From positions 434,001-498,000 of the forward strand of contig NZ_JANHDK010000001.1 in the NCBI RefSeq assembly GCF_024494725.1: a stretch of DNA of 64,000 bases, read 5' to 3'. How positions within the stretch are numbered: the first letter of the stretch is position 1; each line of letters begins with the position of its first letter. Below, piece by piece: positions 53,949 through 62,223 of the stretch. The DNA comes from Haloplanus ruber. Lineage in GTDB: Archaea; Halobacteriota; Halobacteria; Halobacteriales; Haloferacaceae. The notes below the pieces were generated by a model. That model ran no database searches, was not told the DNA's origin, and saw only the letters and a program-made list of their open reading frames with translations. The position numbers and the translations under genes were made by a program.

Positions 53949-54521
53949 TCAGCCGTCGGCCGCCGTCTGGTTGCGCGTCGTCGTCCCCGTCTCGTTTCCG
54001 CTGGCACTGTACGTCCCGGGACAGTCGACGGCGTACGTCTGTGTGCCCCCGGAGACGTCGACGTTCGGTCCCGTCGCTGCGTCGAGTTGGACGCGCAGCG
54101 AGTCGGCACCGGAGACGTTGCTGGCCGTGGGCGGATTCACTCGTATCTCGGCTGCGTCACCGGGGTCGTACGATCCCCCGACGGTCAGATCGAGCGCCTT
54201 ACCCGGCCGTAGTTGTTGAACCTCGCCGTCAGTCCCGCCGACACGGACGTACCCACCGACCGCCTGTACCGTGACGTCGATCTGTTCGACGGTAGTGTTT
54301 TCGGGAAGCCGGTTGCGAACGAGCGTCTGGTCGTCCCCGGCACTCCCCGGCCCGCACTGCAGGCGTTCGCCGAACGCCAGATACGCTTCCGACGGTTCGG
54401 CGACAGTGACGTTCACGCTCCGATCCGGCGAGGCTGTGGAGTACCCCCCGACGCCGAAGGCGAGGCCTACGGCTACACACAGCGCGAACACCGCCACGAG
54501 CCGTCGACGTTGGCGACTCAT
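53949..54521 (-). CDS. Small exported protein with SipW/DUF1102-like N-terminus
   Basis: A 190-residue protein from MSRQRRRLVAVFALCVAVG. The basic, hydrophobic N-terminus followed by GVGGYSTASPDRSVNVTVAEP resembles the exported beta-rich proteins cleaved by SipW-type signal peptidases (DUF1102/camelysin-like), where a GaYStvsadRsv motif follows the signal. The mature part is predicted to be mostly strands, with several N-x-S/T sequons and two cysteines (LQCGP and VDCPG) that could form a disulfide. It is coupled by ATGA to the DUF7344 gene and lies divergent from the SipW-like gene cluster, a likely partner. Confidence 0.7.
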   Translation of the reverse strand: MSRQRRRLVAVFALCVAVGLAFGVGGYSTASPDRSVNVTVAEPSEAYLAFGERLQCGPGSAGDDQTLVRNRLPENTTVEQIDVTVQAVGGYVRVGGTDGEVQQLRPGKALDLTVGGSYDPGDAAEIRVNPPTASNVSGADSLRVQLDAATGPNVDVSGGTQTYAVDCPGTYSASGNETGTTTRNQTAADG

Positions 54522-55054
54522 CTGTCGACTTCCGGTGGTGGTCCCTCCGATCCGAGCCGCATCCCTCGGGTGTAGTAGGTGTGGATCAGTGCTAGTGTGG
54601 CGATGGCGGCGACGGTGAAGGTCGCACAGCCGACGTGGGTCATCCCAGACAGCATCGGGAGACCGAGGCCGTGACCGAGGGTCACGGCCCCTGCCAGCGT
54701 CCCAACACCGAGGTAGTAGAGGCTCCAGGGGAGTTCGTGACCCTGAACGACCTCTAGGTAGAGGTCGACGTCGTTCGCGTCGTCGGTGAGTTCGACCTCG
54801 CCCGCGCGCTGATCGAAGATCACGAGGTTCAGATCCGCCATCTTCGGGAGGTGAAACTGCTGGAGCGAGGTGTAGACGTTCTTGCGTGCGTCCGATCCCA
54901 CCGCCGCGACGTCGATATCGTTCTCCCACGCGGCGACGTGTTCCGCGAGGGTACCCAGTGCTGCCCGCTGTCCGTTCCGCTGTAGGTAGTGGATGACGAA
55001 CCGTCGCCGTCGGTTGCTCAGTACTTCGTATACGTCGTCCCGTGCGAGGCTCAT
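54518..55054 (-). CDS. DUF7344 membrane-associated winged-helix protein
   Basis: A 178-residue protein. Residues 1-100 form a winged helix typical of DUF7344: DDVYEVLSNRRRRFVIHYLQ, ARKNVYTSLQQFHLPKMADL, with a GEVELT wing. Two hydrophobic segments follow (about 110-130 and 137-160), so the DNA-binding domain is attached to the membrane. It is the first gene of a pair and could control the surface-protein cluster that it faces across a 350-base promoter region. Confidence 0.85.
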   Translation of the reverse strand: MSLARDDVYEVLSNRRRRFVIHYLQRNGQRAALGTLAEHVAAWENDIDVAAVGSDARKNVYTSLQQFHLPKMADLNLVIFDQRAGEVELTDDANDVDLYLEVVQGHELPWSLYYLGVGTLAGAVTLGHGLGLPMLSGMTHVGCATFTVAAIATLALIHTYYTRGMRLGSEGPPPEVDR

Positions 55055-55406: not shown

Positions 55407-56942
55407 ATGGAGTCGCACGGAGAACGGATGAGACCACGACGTTTTCTCGCCGTCCTCGCTCTTCTCGTCGCGGTAGCTCTTGCGCTTCCAACCTTCGCTG
55501 CCCCACTCGGCGACCCCGTCGGCGACGGCGTCAGCGTCGTCACCACCAACAGCACCAACGCCGAGTACGTCCGCGTCACCGGTGACGGCGAACTCACCCT
55601 CGATCTCGCCACATCCAATCCCGCGCTCTCCGGCGCTGGCGTCAACGCCGAGGCCGTCACCTACATCGACGATGCCTTCCGCGTCCGCTACGACGGTGAT
55701 CGGTTTGCGAGCGTGTGGCTCACTACCGAGGCCGACGGCATCGCCTTTCGTGCCCGTGGCGCACGCCTCGGCTCGCGCGCGGACGCGATCAGACTCAACC
55801 CTAATGGCTCCGCCTCGGTCGGGGTCGTCGTCGACACCACGACCGGCACTCCGCCCGAGGACGCCTCCTTCTCCGTCGAGGCACGGGTGGCCGAAGCGGG
55901 TGACGTGACTGACGGTACGGCGTCGAGCGGCGGTACCGGCGGCAGTACCGGCGACGGCTCCGGCGAAGAGACGCTGATGCAGGTGGAACACCCCAGCGCC
56001 ACCAGCCGGACGGTGACGGTCGAAAATGCCGTCGTGGGACGGCCGAACACGGCGGCGATGGATCGCCTCGTGGTGGACCGCGAGGGAGACGGCGTCGTCA
56101 CCCTCGACGAACTGACGGTCGTCGGCCAAAGCACGCTGGAGATGGACGTATCCGTAACCGAACCGGACGCCGCAGGGCCGCTCCCGGCCAGCACGTCGAT
56201 GCGGCCGGTTGGTGCGGTCAGGGTCGAGGAGCGGCGGGGGACAGTCGACCAGGCGATCTTCCGGTTCGCGGTCGACCGGGCGTACCTGGCCGCGACCGGA
56301 GTCGATCCCGAGTCGCTGACCCTCTACCGGTACGACGGGAGCGAACGGTCGGAACTCGACGTCGAGGTGGTCGGCCGGAGCGGAGGCGACGTCTTCCTCG
56401 AAGCCGACACGCCGGGGTTGTCGACGTTCGTCATCGCGGCGGCGGCTCCCAGTATCCGGGTCGAAGCGGCCGAACTCCGGCCTGCGACCGTCACCCCCGA
56501 CGAACGGACGACGGTGACGGCGACGGTGACGAACGACGGACGCGTGGCCGGCGAGCGAACGGTCGCGCTGACACTGGACGGTGATGTCGTCGGGGAACGA
56601 CGTGTGACGCTTGCTCCCGACGAGTCGGCACAGGTGACGTTCCGGGTCCGGGCCCCGGGAGGCACACACGATGTTCGCGTCGGCGCGGCCGACGCGGGTC
56701 GCCTCGTCGTCGAGGGAGCGACGCCGGACGGCGGGGCCACGCCGGTTGCCTCGAACCCCGCGGAGAACGTCACGGAAACGCCGCCCGCTGTGTCGCCGGA
56801 GGCGGCCGACACGCCCGCCGTATCGACCGACGAACCGGTGGCCGAACCCGCGGGAGGGTCGCTGCCGGCGACAGCCGCGTTCGTCGCCGGGTTGCTCGCG
56901 TTGCTCGTGCTCATGGCCCTCGCCCGTCGCGTCCGGCGGTGA
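55407..56942 (+). CDS. Large DUF1102/CARDB-type surface protein with C-terminal anchor
   Basis: A 511-residue exported protein from MESHGERMRPRRFLAV (a GTG 15 bases earlier or an ATG 21 bases later are alternatives). A signal helix is at about 12-27. A DUF1102-like region (about 30-165, with LTLDLATSNPALSGAGVN and YIDDAFRV) comes first. After a Gly/Ser-rich hinge there is a PGF-pre-PGF-like domain (about 220-345, IFRFAVDRAYLAATGVD, TPGLSTFVIAAAAP) and a CARDB-like beta domain (about 345-430). A Thr/Pro/Ala-rich stalk and a single C-terminal helix followed by ARRVRR end it. A cell-surface structural or adhesive role is inferred. Confidence 0.75.
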   Translation: MESHGERMRPRRFLAVLALLVAVALALPTFAAPLGDPVGDGVSVVTTNSTNAEYVRVTGDGELTLDLATSNPALSGAGVNAEAVTYIDDAFRVRYDGDRFASVWLTTEADGIAFRARGARLGSRADAIRLNPNGSASVGVVVDTTTGTPPEDASFSVEARVAEAGDVTDGTASSGGTGGSTGDGSGEETLMQVEHPSATSRTVTVENAVVGRPNTAAMDRLVVDREGDGVVTLDELTVVGQSTLEMDVSVTEPDAAGPLPASTSMRPVGAVRVEERRGTVDQAIFRFAVDRAYLAATGVDPESLTLYRYDGSERSELDVEVVGRSGGDVFLEADTPGLSTFVIAAAAPSIRVEAAELRPATVTPDERTTVTATVTNDGRVAGERTVALTLDGDVVGERRVTLAPDESAQVTFRVRAPGGTHDVRVGAADAGRLVVEGATPDGGATPVASNPAENVTETPPAVSPEAADTPAVSTDEPVAEPAGGSLPATAAFVAGLLALLVLMALARRVRR

Positions 56943-57000: not shown

Positions 57001-57843
57001 ATGCTCCCGCGGTCACCGTTTTCGGTGGCAGTGCGACGGGCGATCCGCGGCCGGGACTGTCTGGCCCTCGCCACCGTGCCTGTCGTCCTTGTCGGCGTCT
57101 ACCTCTCCCCGGAGCCGTTCCGCCGATCGCTGACCTTCTCGTATGCCGATCCGGCGCCCCTGTCGGCGGTCGCCGCCCACTTCGTCCACTTCGCACCCGA
57201 GCATCTGCTGGTGAATCTCGTCGGCTACGTCGTCCTCGCCGGGTGTGGCTACCTGCTCGCGGCGCTCGGAGGCTGTCGGCGGCTGTTCGGCGTCGCGGCG
57301 GCGACGTACCTGCTCGCCTTTCCGCCGATCCTGTCGGCGCTAAACCTCGCGGTCCCGCGTCGTGCCGTGGGCTACGGCTTCTCTGGCGTCGTCATGGCCT
57401 TCGCTGGGGTACTCCCGGTCGTGCTGTCGGTGTACGCGGGGCGGCGATTGGACGCCCGGGTCCGTCCGCGACACGCACCGACGCCCTTCTTCGCTGCGCT
57501 GGCGCTAGTGGCGCTGTCGCTCCCGCGAACGCCGCTCACCCTCGGTCTCGCGACGGCGGCGGGTGTCGCGACCATCGGGTACGCGGTGTCGGTCGCGTCG
57601 GCGCTCCGCGGAACGGACCCGCCCGCGACGCCCGCCGGACCGCGAACCGGATGGCTCGACGCCTTCATCGTCGGGGTCGTCGCCATGTTCGGGTACGTCG
57701 CCGTCGGGTTCGCCGTCGCCCCGACCGTCCGGGGTGGCGTCGTCAACCGCTACGTCCACTTACTCGGGTTCTGTCTGGCCTTCATCGTCCCGTACGTCGG
57801 GGTGGAACTCGGCCTCTTCAACGTGGCGGAGGCCGCCGAATGA
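57001..57843 (+). CDS. Rhomboid-family intramembrane serine protease
   Basis: A 280-residue membrane protein with about seven helices. The rhomboid signature residues are present: HFVHFAPEHLLVN in helix 2 with His68 and Asn72, the nucleophile Ser128 in GYGFSG (helix 4) and His253 in RYVHLLGFCLA (last catalytic helix). All of the residues needed for a Ser-His dyad are there, so it should be an active intramembrane protease. It lies between the surface protein and the signal peptidase genes, whose substrates it may cleave. The WR motif of loop 1 is not obvious. Confidence 0.75.
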   Translation: MLPRSPFSVAVRRAIRGRDCLALATVPVVLVGVYLSPEPFRRSLTFSYADPAPLSAVAAHFVHFAPEHLLVNLVGYVVLAGCGYLLAALGGCRRLFGVAAATYLLAFPPILSALNLAVPRRAVGYGFSGVVMAFAGVLPVVLSVYAGRRLDARVRPRHAPTPFFAALALVALSLPRTPLTLGLATAAGVATIGYAVSVASALRGTDPPATPAGPRTGWLDAFIVGVVAMFGYVAVGFAVAPTVRGGVVNRYVHLLGFCLAFIVPYVGVELGLFNVAEAAE

Positions 57844-57904: not shown

Positions 57905-59050
57905 ATGTCACCCCGTCGCGTCCTCGCGTTGGGGGTCGAGGCCGCCGTCGTCGTCGTCGCCATCTCGCTGGTCGCCGGCCAGGTGCTCGGCTACCCCGTC
58001 CTCCTGAGTTACGTCGAGACGGGGAGTATGGCGCCGACGATGGAACCCGGCGACGGCTTTGTCGCGGTGCCGGCACCCCTCGCGGGCGACGTCGGCGAGG
58101 GCGACGTGATCACGTTCCGCGCCGAGGAGATCCAAGGTGGCGGGCTCACTACCCACCGGGTCGTCCGCGAGACGGAACGGGGCTACATTACGCGCGGTGA
58201 CGCCAACCCCTTTACCGACCAGCAGGGGACCGAACCGCCGGTGACGGACGAACAGATCGTCGCGCACGCGCTGCAGGTCCGGGGGACGGTCGTCGTCCTC
58301 CCGAACTTCGGGACCGCCGTCGTCGCCGTGCAGGATGCCTTAGCTGGCGCTCAGCGGTGGCTCGCGGCGACGTTGGGCACTCGGTCGCTGCTCGGAACAC
58401 AGGGGCTTACCTACCTGTTGTTCGCCCTCTCGGCGCTCGCGTACGTCCTCGACCTGCTTCTGGGTGGTGAGCGTGACCGAGAGCGGTCTCGGAGCCGTAC
58501 CGATGGCGTCTCGACGCGACTCGTGATGGTGGGACTTGCACTACTCGTGATGTCGACGGCGACGGCGGCGATGGTCGTCCCCGCGGGCACACAACAGTTC
58601 GGGGTCGTCAGCGCCGAGTTCGACGCCGAGGACCCGACGACCATCCCTGCCGGCGAGTCATCGACAATCGACTACGGCGTCCCCAACGCGGGTCTCGTTC
58701 CAGTTCACGCCTACCTCGAACCGGGGAGTGACCGGGTAGGGGTCGACCGGCGGCACGTCTACGTGCCGAGTCGCGGGACGGAGACGGTCGGTCTGACGCT
58801 CACGGCGCCGCCGGAGACCGGCTATTACCGCTACTATCTCACCGAGCGGCGGTATCTCGCGGTGTTGCCGGCGTCGGTGATCGACGGTCTCTATCGGCTT
58901 CACCCGTGGGTGCCCATCGTCGTCATCGACCTCGTCCTCGGTGTCCCCTTCTACGTCCTCGGCGTCTCTCTGGTCGGGACGGGACGCCTTCGGACCCGGT
59001 CGCGGGACCGTCCCTCTCGTCTCCGTCGCCTGTGGACCCGGTTCACCTGA
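57905..59050 (+). CDS. SipW-like signal peptidase I with a fused C-terminal domain
   Basis: A 381-residue membrane protein. Residues 1-130 are an ER/archaeal-type signal peptidase: the catalytic Ser41 in ETGSMAPTM, His84 in TTHRVV in place of the bacterial Lys, and Asp99 in RGDANPFTDQ. A second helix (about 165-180) is followed by a hydrophobic segment (about 200-220), then an outer beta-rich region (about 225-320) and a last helix (about 335-360). The outer domain is not part of minimal archaeal peptidases and could hold or guide substrates. It likely processes the exported proteins in this cluster. Confidence 0.85.
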   Translation: MSPRRVLALGVEAAVVVVAISLVAGQVLGYPVLLSYVETGSMAPTMEPGDGFVAVPAPLAGDVGEGDVITFRAEEIQGGGLTTHRVVRETERGYITRGDANPFTDQQGTEPPVTDEQIVAHALQVRGTVVVLPNFGTAVVAVQDALAGAQRWLAATLGTRSLLGTQGLTYLLFALSALAYVLDLLLGGERDRERSRSRTDGVSTRLVMVGLALLVMSTATAAMVVPAGTQQFGVVSAEFDAEDPTTIPAGESSTIDYGVPNAGLVPVHAYLEPGSDRVGVDRRHVYVPSRGTETVGLTLTAPPETGYYRYYLTERRYLAVLPASVIDGLYRLHPWVPIVVIDLVLGVPFYVLGVSLVGTGRLRTRSRDRPSRLRRLWTRFT

Positions 59051-59136: not shown

Positions 59137-60309
59137 ATGGCGTGGGGGAGCGACTGGCCGCGAGGCCGTATCGTCCTGTCAGAGTGGTTCGTCGTCATCG
59201 CCGCCGTCGCGGCGATGTTGGCCCTTGTCGGAGGGGCCGTGACGTACACCGCGTACGCCTCGCCGGGGACGACCGTCGAGGAACGCCAGGTGTCCTCGTG
59301 GGAGGGTAACGGCACCTACACCACGACGGCTCGGGTGACCGAACCAAACCCGCTGTATCCGGTCGGCACGGAACTGTCGGAGCGCCCGGCGTATTTCCTC
59401 TCGGTGAGCCCACGGATGCAAGGTCGGTTCGCGTTCGGCTACGAGGCAACCGATGACGGGTCACTCGACGTGACCGCGGAGAGTCGGCTGGTGATGCGCT
59501 CTATTGCGGAGTCAGATGACGGATCGCCCGTCGAGTACTGGCGCATGGAGGAGTCCATCGACTCGACGCGGGTGACGGGGGTACCACCGGGACGGTCGGT
59601 CGAACTGACCTTCGAGCGCAACGTCTCCCGGACGCTCGACCGGATGGAGAACGTCTCGGATCGACTCGGCGGCTCGCCGGGGTCGCTCCAACTGCGCGCG
59701 GTGACCCGCGTCCGAATCGCCGGCGAGGTGAACGGACAGTCGGTGAACCGCTCTGCCGAGTACACGCTGCCCATCGAGACGGACCGATCGACCTACCGCC
59801 CACGGTCGACCCAGGGGTCGGCAGTCACGGGATCGACCACCGAGCGAATTACCCGCCAGCAGACGTACGGGCCGCTGTGGCGCCTCGGTGGACCGGCGGC
59901 GACAATACTCGGTCTCGTCGCCTTTGTCGGTCTCCTCTATGGCCGCGCGGCCGGCCGGTTTGCCGTCACGGACGCCGAACGTGAAGCGGTTGCGTTCCGC
60001 ACGACCCGCGAGGAGTTCGACGACTGGATCACTGTCGCCCGGCCCCCGGAGTCGGTGTTCGACCGCCCGCAGGTCGACGTGGCGGATCTGACAGGGCTAG
60101 TCGACACCGCCATCGACACCGACGAACGGGTGTTCGAGCATCCGGACGGTACCGCGTACTACGTCCTCCACGACGACTGCTGTTACGTGTTCGAGCCGCC
60201 GACCGCCTCGACGGATCACGCTGTTCCGGGCGACGGCCCGACCGAGGGCGAGGACCCCTCACCCGAGGCCGCCGACGGCTCACAGGACGCGCCCGACGCC
60301 GATTCGTGA
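59137..60309 (+). CDS. DUF5305 membrane protein
   Basis: A 390-residue protein. A short cytoplasmic N-terminus and a helix (about 17-40) precede a large outer region of alternating strands (about 45-240, with ASPGTTVEERQVSSWEGN, VSPRMQGRFAFGYEA and RSAEYTLPIETD), and a second helix at about 255-275 returns the chain to the cytoplasm, where an acidic tail of about 110 residues follows (DDWITVARPP, HPDGTAYYVLHDDCCYVFEP). This fits DUF5305, an archaeal family often found beside SipW-type peptidases. Its role is unknown. Confidence 0.82.
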   Translation: MAWGSDWPRGRIVLSEWFVVIAAVAAMLALVGGAVTYTAYASPGTTVEERQVSSWEGNGTYTTTARVTEPNPLYPVGTELSERPAYFLSVSPRMQGRFAFGYEATDDGSLDVTAESRLVMRSIAESDDGSPVEYWRMEESIDSTRVTGVPPGRSVELTFERNVSRTLDRMENVSDRLGGSPGSLQLRAVTRVRIAGEVNGQSVNRSAEYTLPIETDRSTYRPRSTQGSAVTGSTTERITRQQTYGPLWRLGGPAATILGLVAFVGLLYGRAAGRFAVTDAEREAVAFRTTREEFDDWITVARPPESVFDRPQVDVADLTGLVDTAIDTDERVFEHPDGTAYYVLHDDCCYVFEPPTASTDHAVPGDGPTEGEDPSPEAADGSQDAPDADS

Positions 60310-60399
60310 GGGACTGGCCTCCCCTGTCGTCGCCCGGGAAGACTGCGCGGCGATGCCCTTGCCGAAAGGCGTTTCACCCCCACTTCCGTGATAGAGGAT

Positions 60400-62223
60400 A
60401 TGTCCGATCTCGGGGATTTCACGGAGGTGTCACCCGGCGACTCGTCGGCCGACGGGGCGTCGACCGGCGACGACGATCCGACGGCGGCCGGCGAGGCGGC
60501 GTCGAGCGACGACGCCGACGCGGACTTCGACACCTACGACGTCTCGCCGGCCGGGGCCGACCACGGTCTCGGCTCCATCTCCGTCTCCCAAGGGCTCCGC
60601 GTCGCTGAGGATGGCGACGATACGGCGCTAAAGGCGTTCATCACCAGTGACAACCGCGAATCGGTTCGTCTCGGGAAGTACGTGATCGTCCCCTATCCGG
60701 ACGACGAGACGCTCTTCTCCCGTATCACGGCCTTGGAGTACGCCCAAGAGTTCGAGGCCGACGACGCCACCGAAATCCACGCCCGACGGGCGATGCGCCG
60801 CGACGACTTCACTGAACGCGATTACAAGTTTGTGGCGACGCTCGATCCCGTCGCAGTGCTGTTCTCGGAGGGCGGAGAGTTGAAACGCCGGATGACCGAC
60901 CGGGTGCCGAAGCCAGGGGCGGTCGTGGGCGAGGCGACCGACGCCGAACAGATCAAGACGGGGCTTGCCATCCCCGCCGATGGCGTCTTTCTCGGCCATC
61001 TCGCCGTCGGGGGCGAGACGGTGCGGACGGCCGCGACGCCGCCGACTATCGACTACCGACTCACGGACGACTACGCCGACGGCGACCCACTTGTCTTCCG
61101 GCACACCCTCGTTGCCGGCGGCACAGGGTCGGGGAAGACCCACGCCTCGAAGAACGTCCTCCGCCAGTACCTCGACGCGTCGTATCCGATGGACGACGGC
61201 CGCGAGGTGCAAACGGCGGTGGTCCAGTTCGACCCCCAGGACGAGTACGCCCAGATGCACGACGACAACCCTGCGATGGACGACGACTTCGCCCGCCGCC
61301 TCGACCGCGAGGGGGTTTCCCACGGCGGCCACGACGACACTGTCGCTCTCGTCCCCGAGGTCGATGGGGCGTCGTACGGGGGCGCCACCCACCGCGCCGA
61401 GCAGGTCCCCTTCACCGTCCCGTTCCGAATGGTCCGGCGCCGGCCGTGGCTGGTCGCGGGTGCCCGCCTCAACGACAACCAGTACCAAGCGCTCGATTAT
61501 CTCCTCGACCGCTTCTTCCGCGATTACGGCGACAAGGCGACCTACGACGCGTTCACCTCGTTTCTCGACGACCCTGCGCTCCGCGAGGAACTCGACGAGT
61601 CCGGGCGCATCCACGAGGCTACCTTCGACGCCGTCCGGCGGCGGGCACTCGGGAGCGCCTTCTCTCGGGTGTTCGACCGCGACGCGCGCCCCGTAACCGA
61701 CTTGGTTCACGAACTCGTCCGCCCCGGTGGCTTGACCGTCGTCCCCACGTACCACGTCAACGACACCCGTGCAACCGAACTGGTCGTCCTCGCGGTGGCG
61801 AGTCTGCTGGTAGACGAGAAGCTATCGAATGATCCCACGTACGACCGTATCAAGGAGACACCGCTGATCGTCGGGATGGACGAGGCACACAACTTCCTGA
61901 CCGACGCCGAGAGCGTTCAGGCCCGGAAGGTCATCGGGAAGTTCACCGAGGCGGCCAAACAGGGCCGGAAGGAACGACTCGGTCTCTTTCTCATCACGCA
62001 GGACCCGCAGGATATCGCCGATTCGGTGTTCAAGCAGGTGAACACGAAACTGGTGCTCAACCTGGGCGACGAAGACGCCATCAGCAGCGTCAACATTCCG
62101 TCGACGCTGGAGGACAAGGTGCCGTACATGGAGAAAGGGCAGATGGTGGTCTACTCGCCGGACAACTCCGAACCCGTCGAACTCACCGGGTTGCCGGTCT
62201 GCGTGACCCGACACGGCGACTGA
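60400..62223 (+). CDS. herA: HerA-type ATPase (helicase HerA/DUF87 family)
   Basis: A 607-residue ATPase from MSDLGDFTEVSPGDSS (a GTG 12 bases earlier is possible). An acidic 55-residue N-terminus comes first, then the HAS-barrel region (about 60-220), and a RecA-like motor with Walker A GTGSGKTH at 241-248, Walker B LIVGMDEAHNFL and the sensor LITQDPQDI. HerA hexamers translocate DNA and act with NurA in end resection. The arginine-finger region (AAKQGRKERLG) is present. It could be the partner of the NurA at 51251. Confidence 0.85.
   Translation: MSDLGDFTEVSPGDSSADGASTGDDDPTAAGEAASSDDADADFDTYDVSPAGADHGLGSISVSQGLRVAEDGDDTALKAFITSDNRESVRLGKYVIVPYPDDETLFSRITALEYAQEFEADDATEIHARRAMRRDDFTERDYKFVATLDPVAVLFSEGGELKRRMTDRVPKPGAVVGEATDAEQIKTGLAIPADGVFLGHLAVGGETVRTAATPPTIDYRLTDDYADGDPLVFRHTLVAGGTGSGKTHASKNVLRQYLDASYPMDDGREVQTAVVQFDPQDEYAQMHDDNPAMDDDFARRLDREGVSHGGHDDTVALVPEVDGASYGGATHRAEQVPFTVPFRMVRRRPWLVAGARLNDNQYQALDYLLDRFFRDYGDKATYDAFTSFLDDPALREELDESGRIHEATFDAVRRRALGSAFSRVFDRDARPVTDLVHELVRPGGLTVVPTYHVNDTRATELVVLAVASLLVDEKLSNDPTYDRIKETPLIVGMDEAHNFLTDAESVQARKVIGKFTEAAKQGRKERLGLFLITQDPQDIADSVFKQVNTKLVLNLGDEDAISSVNIPSTLEDKVPYMEKGQMVVYSPDNSEPVELTGLPVCVTRHGD

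Follow-up and report, generated by a model that had tools for sequence, protein, structure and literature searches.

A gene for a predicted intramembrane protease that lies between the genes of a large surface protein and a signal peptidase raises the question of which protein the protease acts upon. This arrangement is found in the haloarchaeon Haloplanus ruber, within the stretch of 64,000 nucleotides that was analyzed here as a whole (the window). The first-pass annotation had read a complete rhomboid catalytic set in the middle gene and had proposed the C-terminal helix of the surface protein as its likely substrate. The features on which the argument draws are listed below in window positions.

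53949..54521, minus strand: TafE/TafA-like exported protein of 190 aa, candidate fimbrial subunit (weak matches to TafE and TafA)
54518..55054, minus strand: DUF7344 protein, possibly the regulator of the cluster (PF24035, E 9.1e-29)
55407..56942, plus strand: exported surface protein of 511 aa, the proposed substrate; strand-rich, with PGF-pre-PGF and CARDB domains
56844..56939, plus strand: tripartite C-terminal tail of the surface protein (EPAGGS box, helix, Arg-rich end), from alignment A3 and the model
57001..57843, plus strand: predicted rhomboid-fold intramembrane serine protease gene (open frame of 280 aa, homology, model)
57202..57216, plus strand: codons His68 to Asn72, HxxxN in TM2, invariant in 39/39 rows
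57382..57384, plus strand: codon of the predicted catalytic Ser128 (GFSG), with which the TM4 helix starts
57478..57612, plus strand: additional hairpin of two helices between TM4 and TM5, residues 160-204 (AlphaFold2 helices 160-172 and 178-204)
57757..57759, plus strand: codon of the predicted catalytic His253 in TM6
57905..59050, plus strand: archaeal type I signal peptidase of 381 aa (TIGR02228)
59137..60309, plus strand: DUF5305 protein, with which the conserved part of the cluster ends (PF17231, E 7.9e-48)

The rhomboid-fold protein and its subfamily

The residues named in the first-pass annotation (His68 and Asn72, Ser128 within GFSG, and His253) were verified in the translation of positions 57001-57843, in which the motifs EHLLVN, GYGFSG and YVHLLG start at residues 67, 124 and 251, respectively. 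They also occupy the expected helices of the AlphaFold2 model built with a 39-row alignment (pLDDT 90.4, pTM 0.88), with His68/Asn72 in helix 66-89, Ser128 opening helix 128-150 and His253 in helix 250-269. Alignment A1 comprises 39 rows, the window protein and 38 homologues of 35-53% identity; three further loci were omitted from it because the frame was split (L020), in pieces (L031) or truncated (L034), and L031 was likewise omitted from alignment A2. His63, His68, Asn72, Gly126, Ser128, Gly129, Asn249, His253 and Gly256 are invariant throughout A1, and the catalytic residue set is thus not a product of chance.

The scan of named genome contigs for homologues gave 41 loci, all of them haloarchaeal by record title except one titled only 'uncultured archaeon', and a rhomboid-clade match at E <= 1e-10 occurs in 146 of the 341 genomes of the class. 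The full catalytic set is present in all 43 fetched loci of at least 300 bits, a sample which includes the window's own gene and shares species with the 41 loci. It is partly missing in 4 of 31 loci at 150-300 bits, owing in two of them to an incomplete ORF, and at 70-150 bits Asn72 is missing in one of 18 loci. On a Halolamina pelagica contig (L020), the rhomboid and signal peptidase frames are each split in two, reflecting either real decay or sequencing error.

The Pfam rhomboid model PF01694 does not match the window protein; it matches 5 of the 39 A1 rows at E <= 0.1 (best 0.00023), and its three loci in the whole-genome search all lie elsewhere than the window gene. This model is a curated detection tool and not itself a defining trait of rhomboid proteases, MEROPS family S54; the S54 traits found in the window protein are the GxSG serine at the start of TM4, the TM6 histidine, the HxxxN of TM2 and a predicted six-helix fold. 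In a VIA-align 2 comparison, the model superposes on E. coli GlpG over 170 of 182 residues with an rmsd of 3.3 and 14% identity (Z 13.0). The 38 highest rows, which span Z 13.0 to 8.4, consist entirely of folds of the rhomboid, iRhom or designed-rhomboid type, and row 39 drops to Z 6.2; a Z below about 13 may reflect an arrangement common in helical bundles. The Foldseek E-values of the model are weak, the best being 0.042 and none reaching 0.001, and when the rhomboid alignment served as a profile against solved structures, only four rubisco chains were returned (E 0.13-0.21). Taken at the level of sequence and prediction, the catalytic residues and rhomboid fold assigned to the window gene are supported by comparison.

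Several traits set the protein apart. In GlpG, TM4 leads directly to TM5, whereas the model places the additional hairpin between them. The spacing from Ser to His is 125 residues, within a range of 119-166 in 81 loci of at least 300 bits; the three rhomboids that Pfam recognizes in this genome have spacings of 61, 63 and 74. The fourth residue after the serine (Ser+4) is Met in 38 of the 39 A1 rows; its counterpart in GlpG is Tyr205. The hairpin, the spacing and the methionine therefore indicate a distinct subfamily. The first-pass annotation took the protein for a rhomboid in the general sense; the hairpin and the methionine mark a separate haloarchaeal subfamily. The methionine, in the place of which bacterial rhombosortases have His, and the hairpin would also suit a rhomboid-like pseudoprotease, i.e., a fold without protease activity that serves as an escort or assembly factor, and iRhoms appear among the structural matches. 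Such a role is nevertheless highly improbable: the serine, the histidine, HxxxN and GxSG are unvarying in the close members examined, and pseudoproteases are not expected to keep them.

The gene cluster and the C-terminal tail

Of the 41 loci, 36 have the gene of a surface-protein homologue upstream, on the strand of the rhomboid gene; a signal peptidase accompanies the rhomboid in 37 and a DUF5305 protein in 36; some loci are partial, L034 starting inside the rhomboid and L006 stopping inside the signal peptidase. None of the three partners is found at four loci (L033, on a short contig, L036, L037 and L038). In the window, the gene downstream of the rhomboid is confirmed as a signal peptidase by TIGR02228 (55.3 bits, cut-off 51.85), and it also matches the SipW model at E 4.6e-08, far under the SipW cut-off. 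Upstream of the surface protein, the DUF7344 gene and the TafE/TafA-like gene form a divergent pair on the minus strand (53949-55054), overlapping by four bases, which perhaps represents a regulator and a fimbrial subunit of the same cluster. Directly beyond the cluster lies a HerA-like ATPase gene (60388-62223, plus strand), which is not assigned to it.

The surface protein has the 511 residues originally ascribed to it if translation starts at the ATG at 55407, and the alternative ATG at 55428 would give 504. Numbered from the latter, its tail consists of the EPAGGS box (473-478), a helix (479-503) and then the Arg-rich end. In the structural model (pLDDT 81.5, pTM 0.61), a disordered linker spans approximately residues 431-476 and the box sits where the disorder gives way to the helix; a second-look structural alignment of this model covers mainly residues 340-434, the CARDB region. 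The C-termini of its relatives follow the same plan, in which a variable linker is followed by the box, of the form E-P-x-G-[FI], and then by a single helix and arginines. Alignment A3 comprises 36 tails; a Glu and an Arg are the same in all of them (36/36), and the Pro, the Gly, a second Gly in the helix, a Leu and a second Arg are each conserved in at least 90%. The linker ahead of the box is hypervariable, in contrast to the conserved box. The window's own box, EPAGG, deviates from the F/I consensus.

In its own genome, the tail model gives a confident match to the window surface protein alone (37.5 bits, the next being 15.5), so that the pair of rhomboid and surface protein looks one-to-one here. 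Several genomes of the genus designated g2 hold second surface-protein copies with related tails away from the rhomboid, and recognition in trans is therefore possible there. At L179-L183, L185, L186 and L188-L190, second copies in genomes with a rhomboid elsewhere carry a related tail ending in RRAPR and are candidate clients in trans; the stretches fetched for these loci contain no match to the rhomboid, the signal peptidase or DUF5305.

The tail and the rhomboid are distributed together. Matches to the tail model (E <= 1e-5) occur in 54 of the 341 genomes, and all 54 code for a rhomboid-clade member. The tail is present in 51 of the 56 genomes with a rhomboid member of at least 290 bits versus 3 of the 285 others, a comparison which is partly circular, since the tail model was derived from rhomboid-adjacent loci and since neither the box pattern nor the 290-bit line was fixed before the data had been seen. 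For these reasons, and because relatedness among the genomes (one large genus, g2) inflates the p values of co-distribution, its p value of 4.8e-51 overstates the case.

A further comparison considered surface-protein homologues of at least 250 bits. The strict box E[PA]xG[FIVLTMG] is found at 66 of the 76 loci with a rhomboid within 700 bp, a set that contains species twice, and at 6 of the 21 without one, of which 20 were hand-picked from 21 rows of about 250-418 bits (G253:C65 was left out), the remaining homologue being the second copy in L001. After removal of duplicate tails the proportions are 44/51 and 5/18. Ten loci have a nearby rhomboid and no strict box: in seven of them (L015, L027, L028, L058, L059, L064 and L076) the x-G pair is replaced by G-S, S-A or G-A, while in L031 the frame ends early, L088 reads EPATL and L094 has the box further from the end. 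Of particular relevance are four genomes (L175-L178) in which the surface gene and the signal peptidase are only 1-71 bp apart, with no rhomboid between them; their tails keep the helix and the arginines, and the box is gone. A clade member (E <= 1e-10) is absent in three of the four, and the fourth (G233) has one elsewhere; this clear loss of the box is confined to a single genus. L173, from the window's own genus and without a clade member, reads EPGAL. L174, L184 and L187, with no adjacent rhomboid and a clade member elsewhere, keep EPAGG or EPAGF.

More distant clade members were examined at 60 loci (L084-L143), hand-picked from the ranked clade matches, with two tail filters. By the second filter, an adjacent ORF with a tripartite tail accompanies 21 of the 42 rhomboids of at least 150 bits versus one of the 18 weaker ones (Fisher p 0.001), where the match at L123 is probably a spurious ORF and box-bearing neighbours at L086, L092 and L095 were missed; by the first filter (<= 650 bp) the counts are 23/42 and 0/18. 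The neighbours at L107 and L108 do not match the surface-protein model and that at L096 matches at 45 bits only, and all of them bear the E-P-x-G box as EPGGF or EPAGL ahead of the helix; the L104 neighbour, a partial surface-protein relative (130 bits), has EPFGF. Among other tail-bearing ORFs, the box pattern occurs in 8 of 17 near a clade member versus 2 of 17 far from one, both of the latter through the E-A alternative only. The presence of E-P-x-G on neighbours of distant clade members hints at a wider sorting signal. The surface proteins beside such members at L107, L108, L116, L121, L096 and L104 range from 297 to 1631 residues, with E-P-x-G before the last helix.

Taf clusters, rhombosortase and archaeosortase

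The composition of the window cluster resembles that of the fimbrial clusters described by the NCBIfam models TafA, TafC, TafE and TafF, 'Taf' being a database label; a search for papers on Taf proteins gave nothing relevant among the matches listed. The window proteins are under every Taf cut-off: the gene at 53949-54521 matches TafE at E 2.9e-06 (27.1 bits, cut-off 155) and TafA at E 9.5e-06 (25.8 bits, cut-off 190), and TafF has no match at E <= 1 at the window locus. TafF does match 14 of the 36 surface-protein relatives at this threshold, the window's own protein not being one of them, and in one related genome (L115, G055) TafE and TafA exceed their cut-offs, with TafF some 1.4 kb away from the rhomboid. 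A second difference concerns the tail, for the TafF proteins that could be read (19/19 loci with readable frames, L153-L171) have two terminal hydrophobic stretches, with neither box nor arginines. Of the 13 genomes whose TafF exceeds its cut-off, just 4 show a rhomboid-clade match of any kind, and a weaker clade member lies 0.4-5.9 kb from a TafF match in six genomes (G051, G055, G082, G112, G139 and G179). At L115 and L113 the TafF tail lacks box and arginines although a rhomboid-clade gene sits in the cluster.

The persistence of a clade member in those six genomes, whose TafF lacks the tail, would fit a rhomboid that cuts another membrane protein of the cluster, such as DUF5305, the signal peptidase or a fimbrial subunit, the tail of the surface protein being a mere anchor; the signal peptidase and DUF5305 are indeed found with the rhomboid no less often than the surface protein is. 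This is nonetheless rather unlikely. Nine loci of weaker clade members (L096, L106-L108, L110-L112, L116 and L121) have a tail-bearing neighbour and no match to the signal peptidase or DUF5305 in the stretch, and in the rhomboid-less loci L175-L178 the signal peptidase is kept and it is the tail box that changes.

The closest functional parallel is bacterial rhombosortase (RssP, TIGR03902) with its GlyGly-CTERM targets, which likewise combines a rhomboid-fold serine protease with targets ending in a motif, a helix and a basic C-terminus. According to the available portions of two papers (PMC3237569, PMC6219818), rhombosortase and target genes tend to adjoin where the target is single. The co-occurrence of a tripartite C-terminal signal with the rhomboid, as counted above and with the same partial circularity, is a rhombosortase-like trait as well. 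The sequences themselves differ. The rhombosortase motif is Gly/Ser-rich, and its host bacterial; here the box is E-P-x-G-[FI], the enzyme has the extra TM4-TM5 hairpin and the host is archaeal. The features given for rhombosortase in the accessible text of PMC3237569 are WRxxS/T in loop 1, SGMLH with His at Ser+4, and AHxxGxxxG in TM6. In A1, the place of the His at Ser+4 is taken by Met in 38 of the 39 rows; Ala precedes the TM6 histidine in one of the 39 rows (Val in 35), and the last position of this motif is Ala in 22 and Gly in 17, with VHxxGxxxA in the window protein. At residues 40-43 TRRS is commonest instead of WRxxS/T, and the window protein has FRRS and a loop 1 without Trp.

Membership in the rhombosortase family was also considered by means of TIGR03902 and rejected. 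The score of the window rhomboid is 18.2 bits, where 84 are required, and no locus exceeds this cut-off of 84 bits in the 341 genomes of the class, other loci reaching up to 49.3 bits. Weak matches in 31 of the 39 A1 rows (E <= 0.1) are unspecific, since 323 of the 341 genomes match at E <= 0.001, as do all 14 control genomes, and many other loci outscore the window rhomboid. The GlyGly-CTERM model TIGR03501 was not among the 22 families matched by the 36 relatives at E <= 1, a search in which the HMMER filters may lose short models. In the literature covered, which was mostly open-access, excluded preprints and was available in part, no archaeal rhombosortase or archaeal rhomboid with a C-terminal signal was found.

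The haloarchaeal rhomboids Rho1 and Rho2 of Haloferax volcanii also affect cell-surface processes, and the available text of PMC11985538 leaves the identification of their natural substrates as future work; in the part of PMC9263693 at hand, rhomboid substrates are named as putative ones only. Rho1 and Rho2 were compared by description, the contrast in sequence being that with the three Pfam rhomboids of the genome (Ser-to-His spacing of 61-74 versus 125).

Archaeosortase A with its PGF-CTERM signal (PMC9263693 and PMC7157517, in the portions available) similarly acts on a tripartite C-terminal sorting signal of haloarchaeal surface proteins, and the accessible text of PMC7157517 mentions bacterial rhombosortase only as its nonhomologous analogue. 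Archaeosortase A is unrelated to rhomboids. Since the genome codes for archaeosortase A (335.6 bits) and has seven PGF-CTERM matches over cut-off, and the surface protein itself contains a PGF-pre-PGF domain, archaeosortase might handle the tail in the manner of PGF-CTERM, leaving the rhomboid an unrelated role such as quality control; the L122 neighbour, with its PGF-like tail, is in line with this. Such a division of labour is improbable, as the presence of the box tracks the rhomboid and the PGF-CTERM model (TIGR04126) misses the tail: the tail is not among the 21 genome matches at E <= 10, nor is there any match in the 36 relatives at E <= 1.

The proposed enzyme-substrate pair

The comparative evidence of gene order, conserved tail and co-distribution thus supports the original suggestion that the C-terminal helix of the neighbouring protein is the likely substrate. 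The strongest evidence goes beyond that reading and comprises the conserved E-P-x-G box, its loss in one genus whose clusters are without the rhomboid, and the Taf-like fimbrial setting. It is thus probable, though far from assured, that a rhomboid of a haloarchaeal subfamily acts on the tail of the surface protein encoded upstream of it, perhaps also on close paralogues encoded elsewhere. The best reading is of an enzyme that functions as rhombosortase does in bacteria but falls outside that family.

The proposed course of events would begin with export of the surface protein, whose N-terminal signal peptide may be removed by the cluster's own signal peptidase. The last helix would then stay in the membrane with its arginines inside, an orientation that would present the box at the outer membrane edge. 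Rhomboids open at the outer edge of the membrane. The enzyme would recognize the E-P-x-G-[FI] box there, together with the helix rich in small residues, and Ser128, activated by His253, would cut at or just after the box by way of an acyl-enzyme. The freed surface protein might then either be released, possibly to become part of a Taf-like fimbria, or be handed on to another anchor. For bacterial rhombosortase, the available text of PMC6219818 proposes resolution of the acyl-enzyme by water or ethanolamine and reports a product mass in Vibrio cholerae that fits glycerophosphoethanolamine; by analogy, release and re-anchoring are both conceivable for the present product.

Several observations run counter to the proposed pair, namely the tail-less TafF clusters with a nearby rhomboid, the four partner-less rhomboid loci (L033, L036-L038), the PGF-CTERM-like tail on the L122 neighbour, which suggests archaeosortase instead, and the 21 of 42 stronger clade loci without an adjacent tail by the second filter. 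A broader scheme can be put forward only tentatively and has the odds against it: an eight-helix haloarchaeal subfamily, specialized independently of rhombosortase, may cut E-P-x-G-[FI]-CTERM tails and re-anchor the proteins, with fimbrial proteins of the Taf-like kind and several large surface proteins as its clients.

The natural substrates of haloarchaeal rhomboids are still sought, according to the available text of PMC11985538, and the pair described here provides a concrete enzyme-substrate hypothesis. Its motif is defined, its gene order is conserved, and loci without the enzyme serve as natural controls. If the hypothesis is true, C-terminal sorting tails in archaea would be handled by a second route in addition to archaeosortase and unrelated to it, in parallel to the split between rhombosortase and exosortase in bacteria, and the assembly of fimbriae might gain a protease step.
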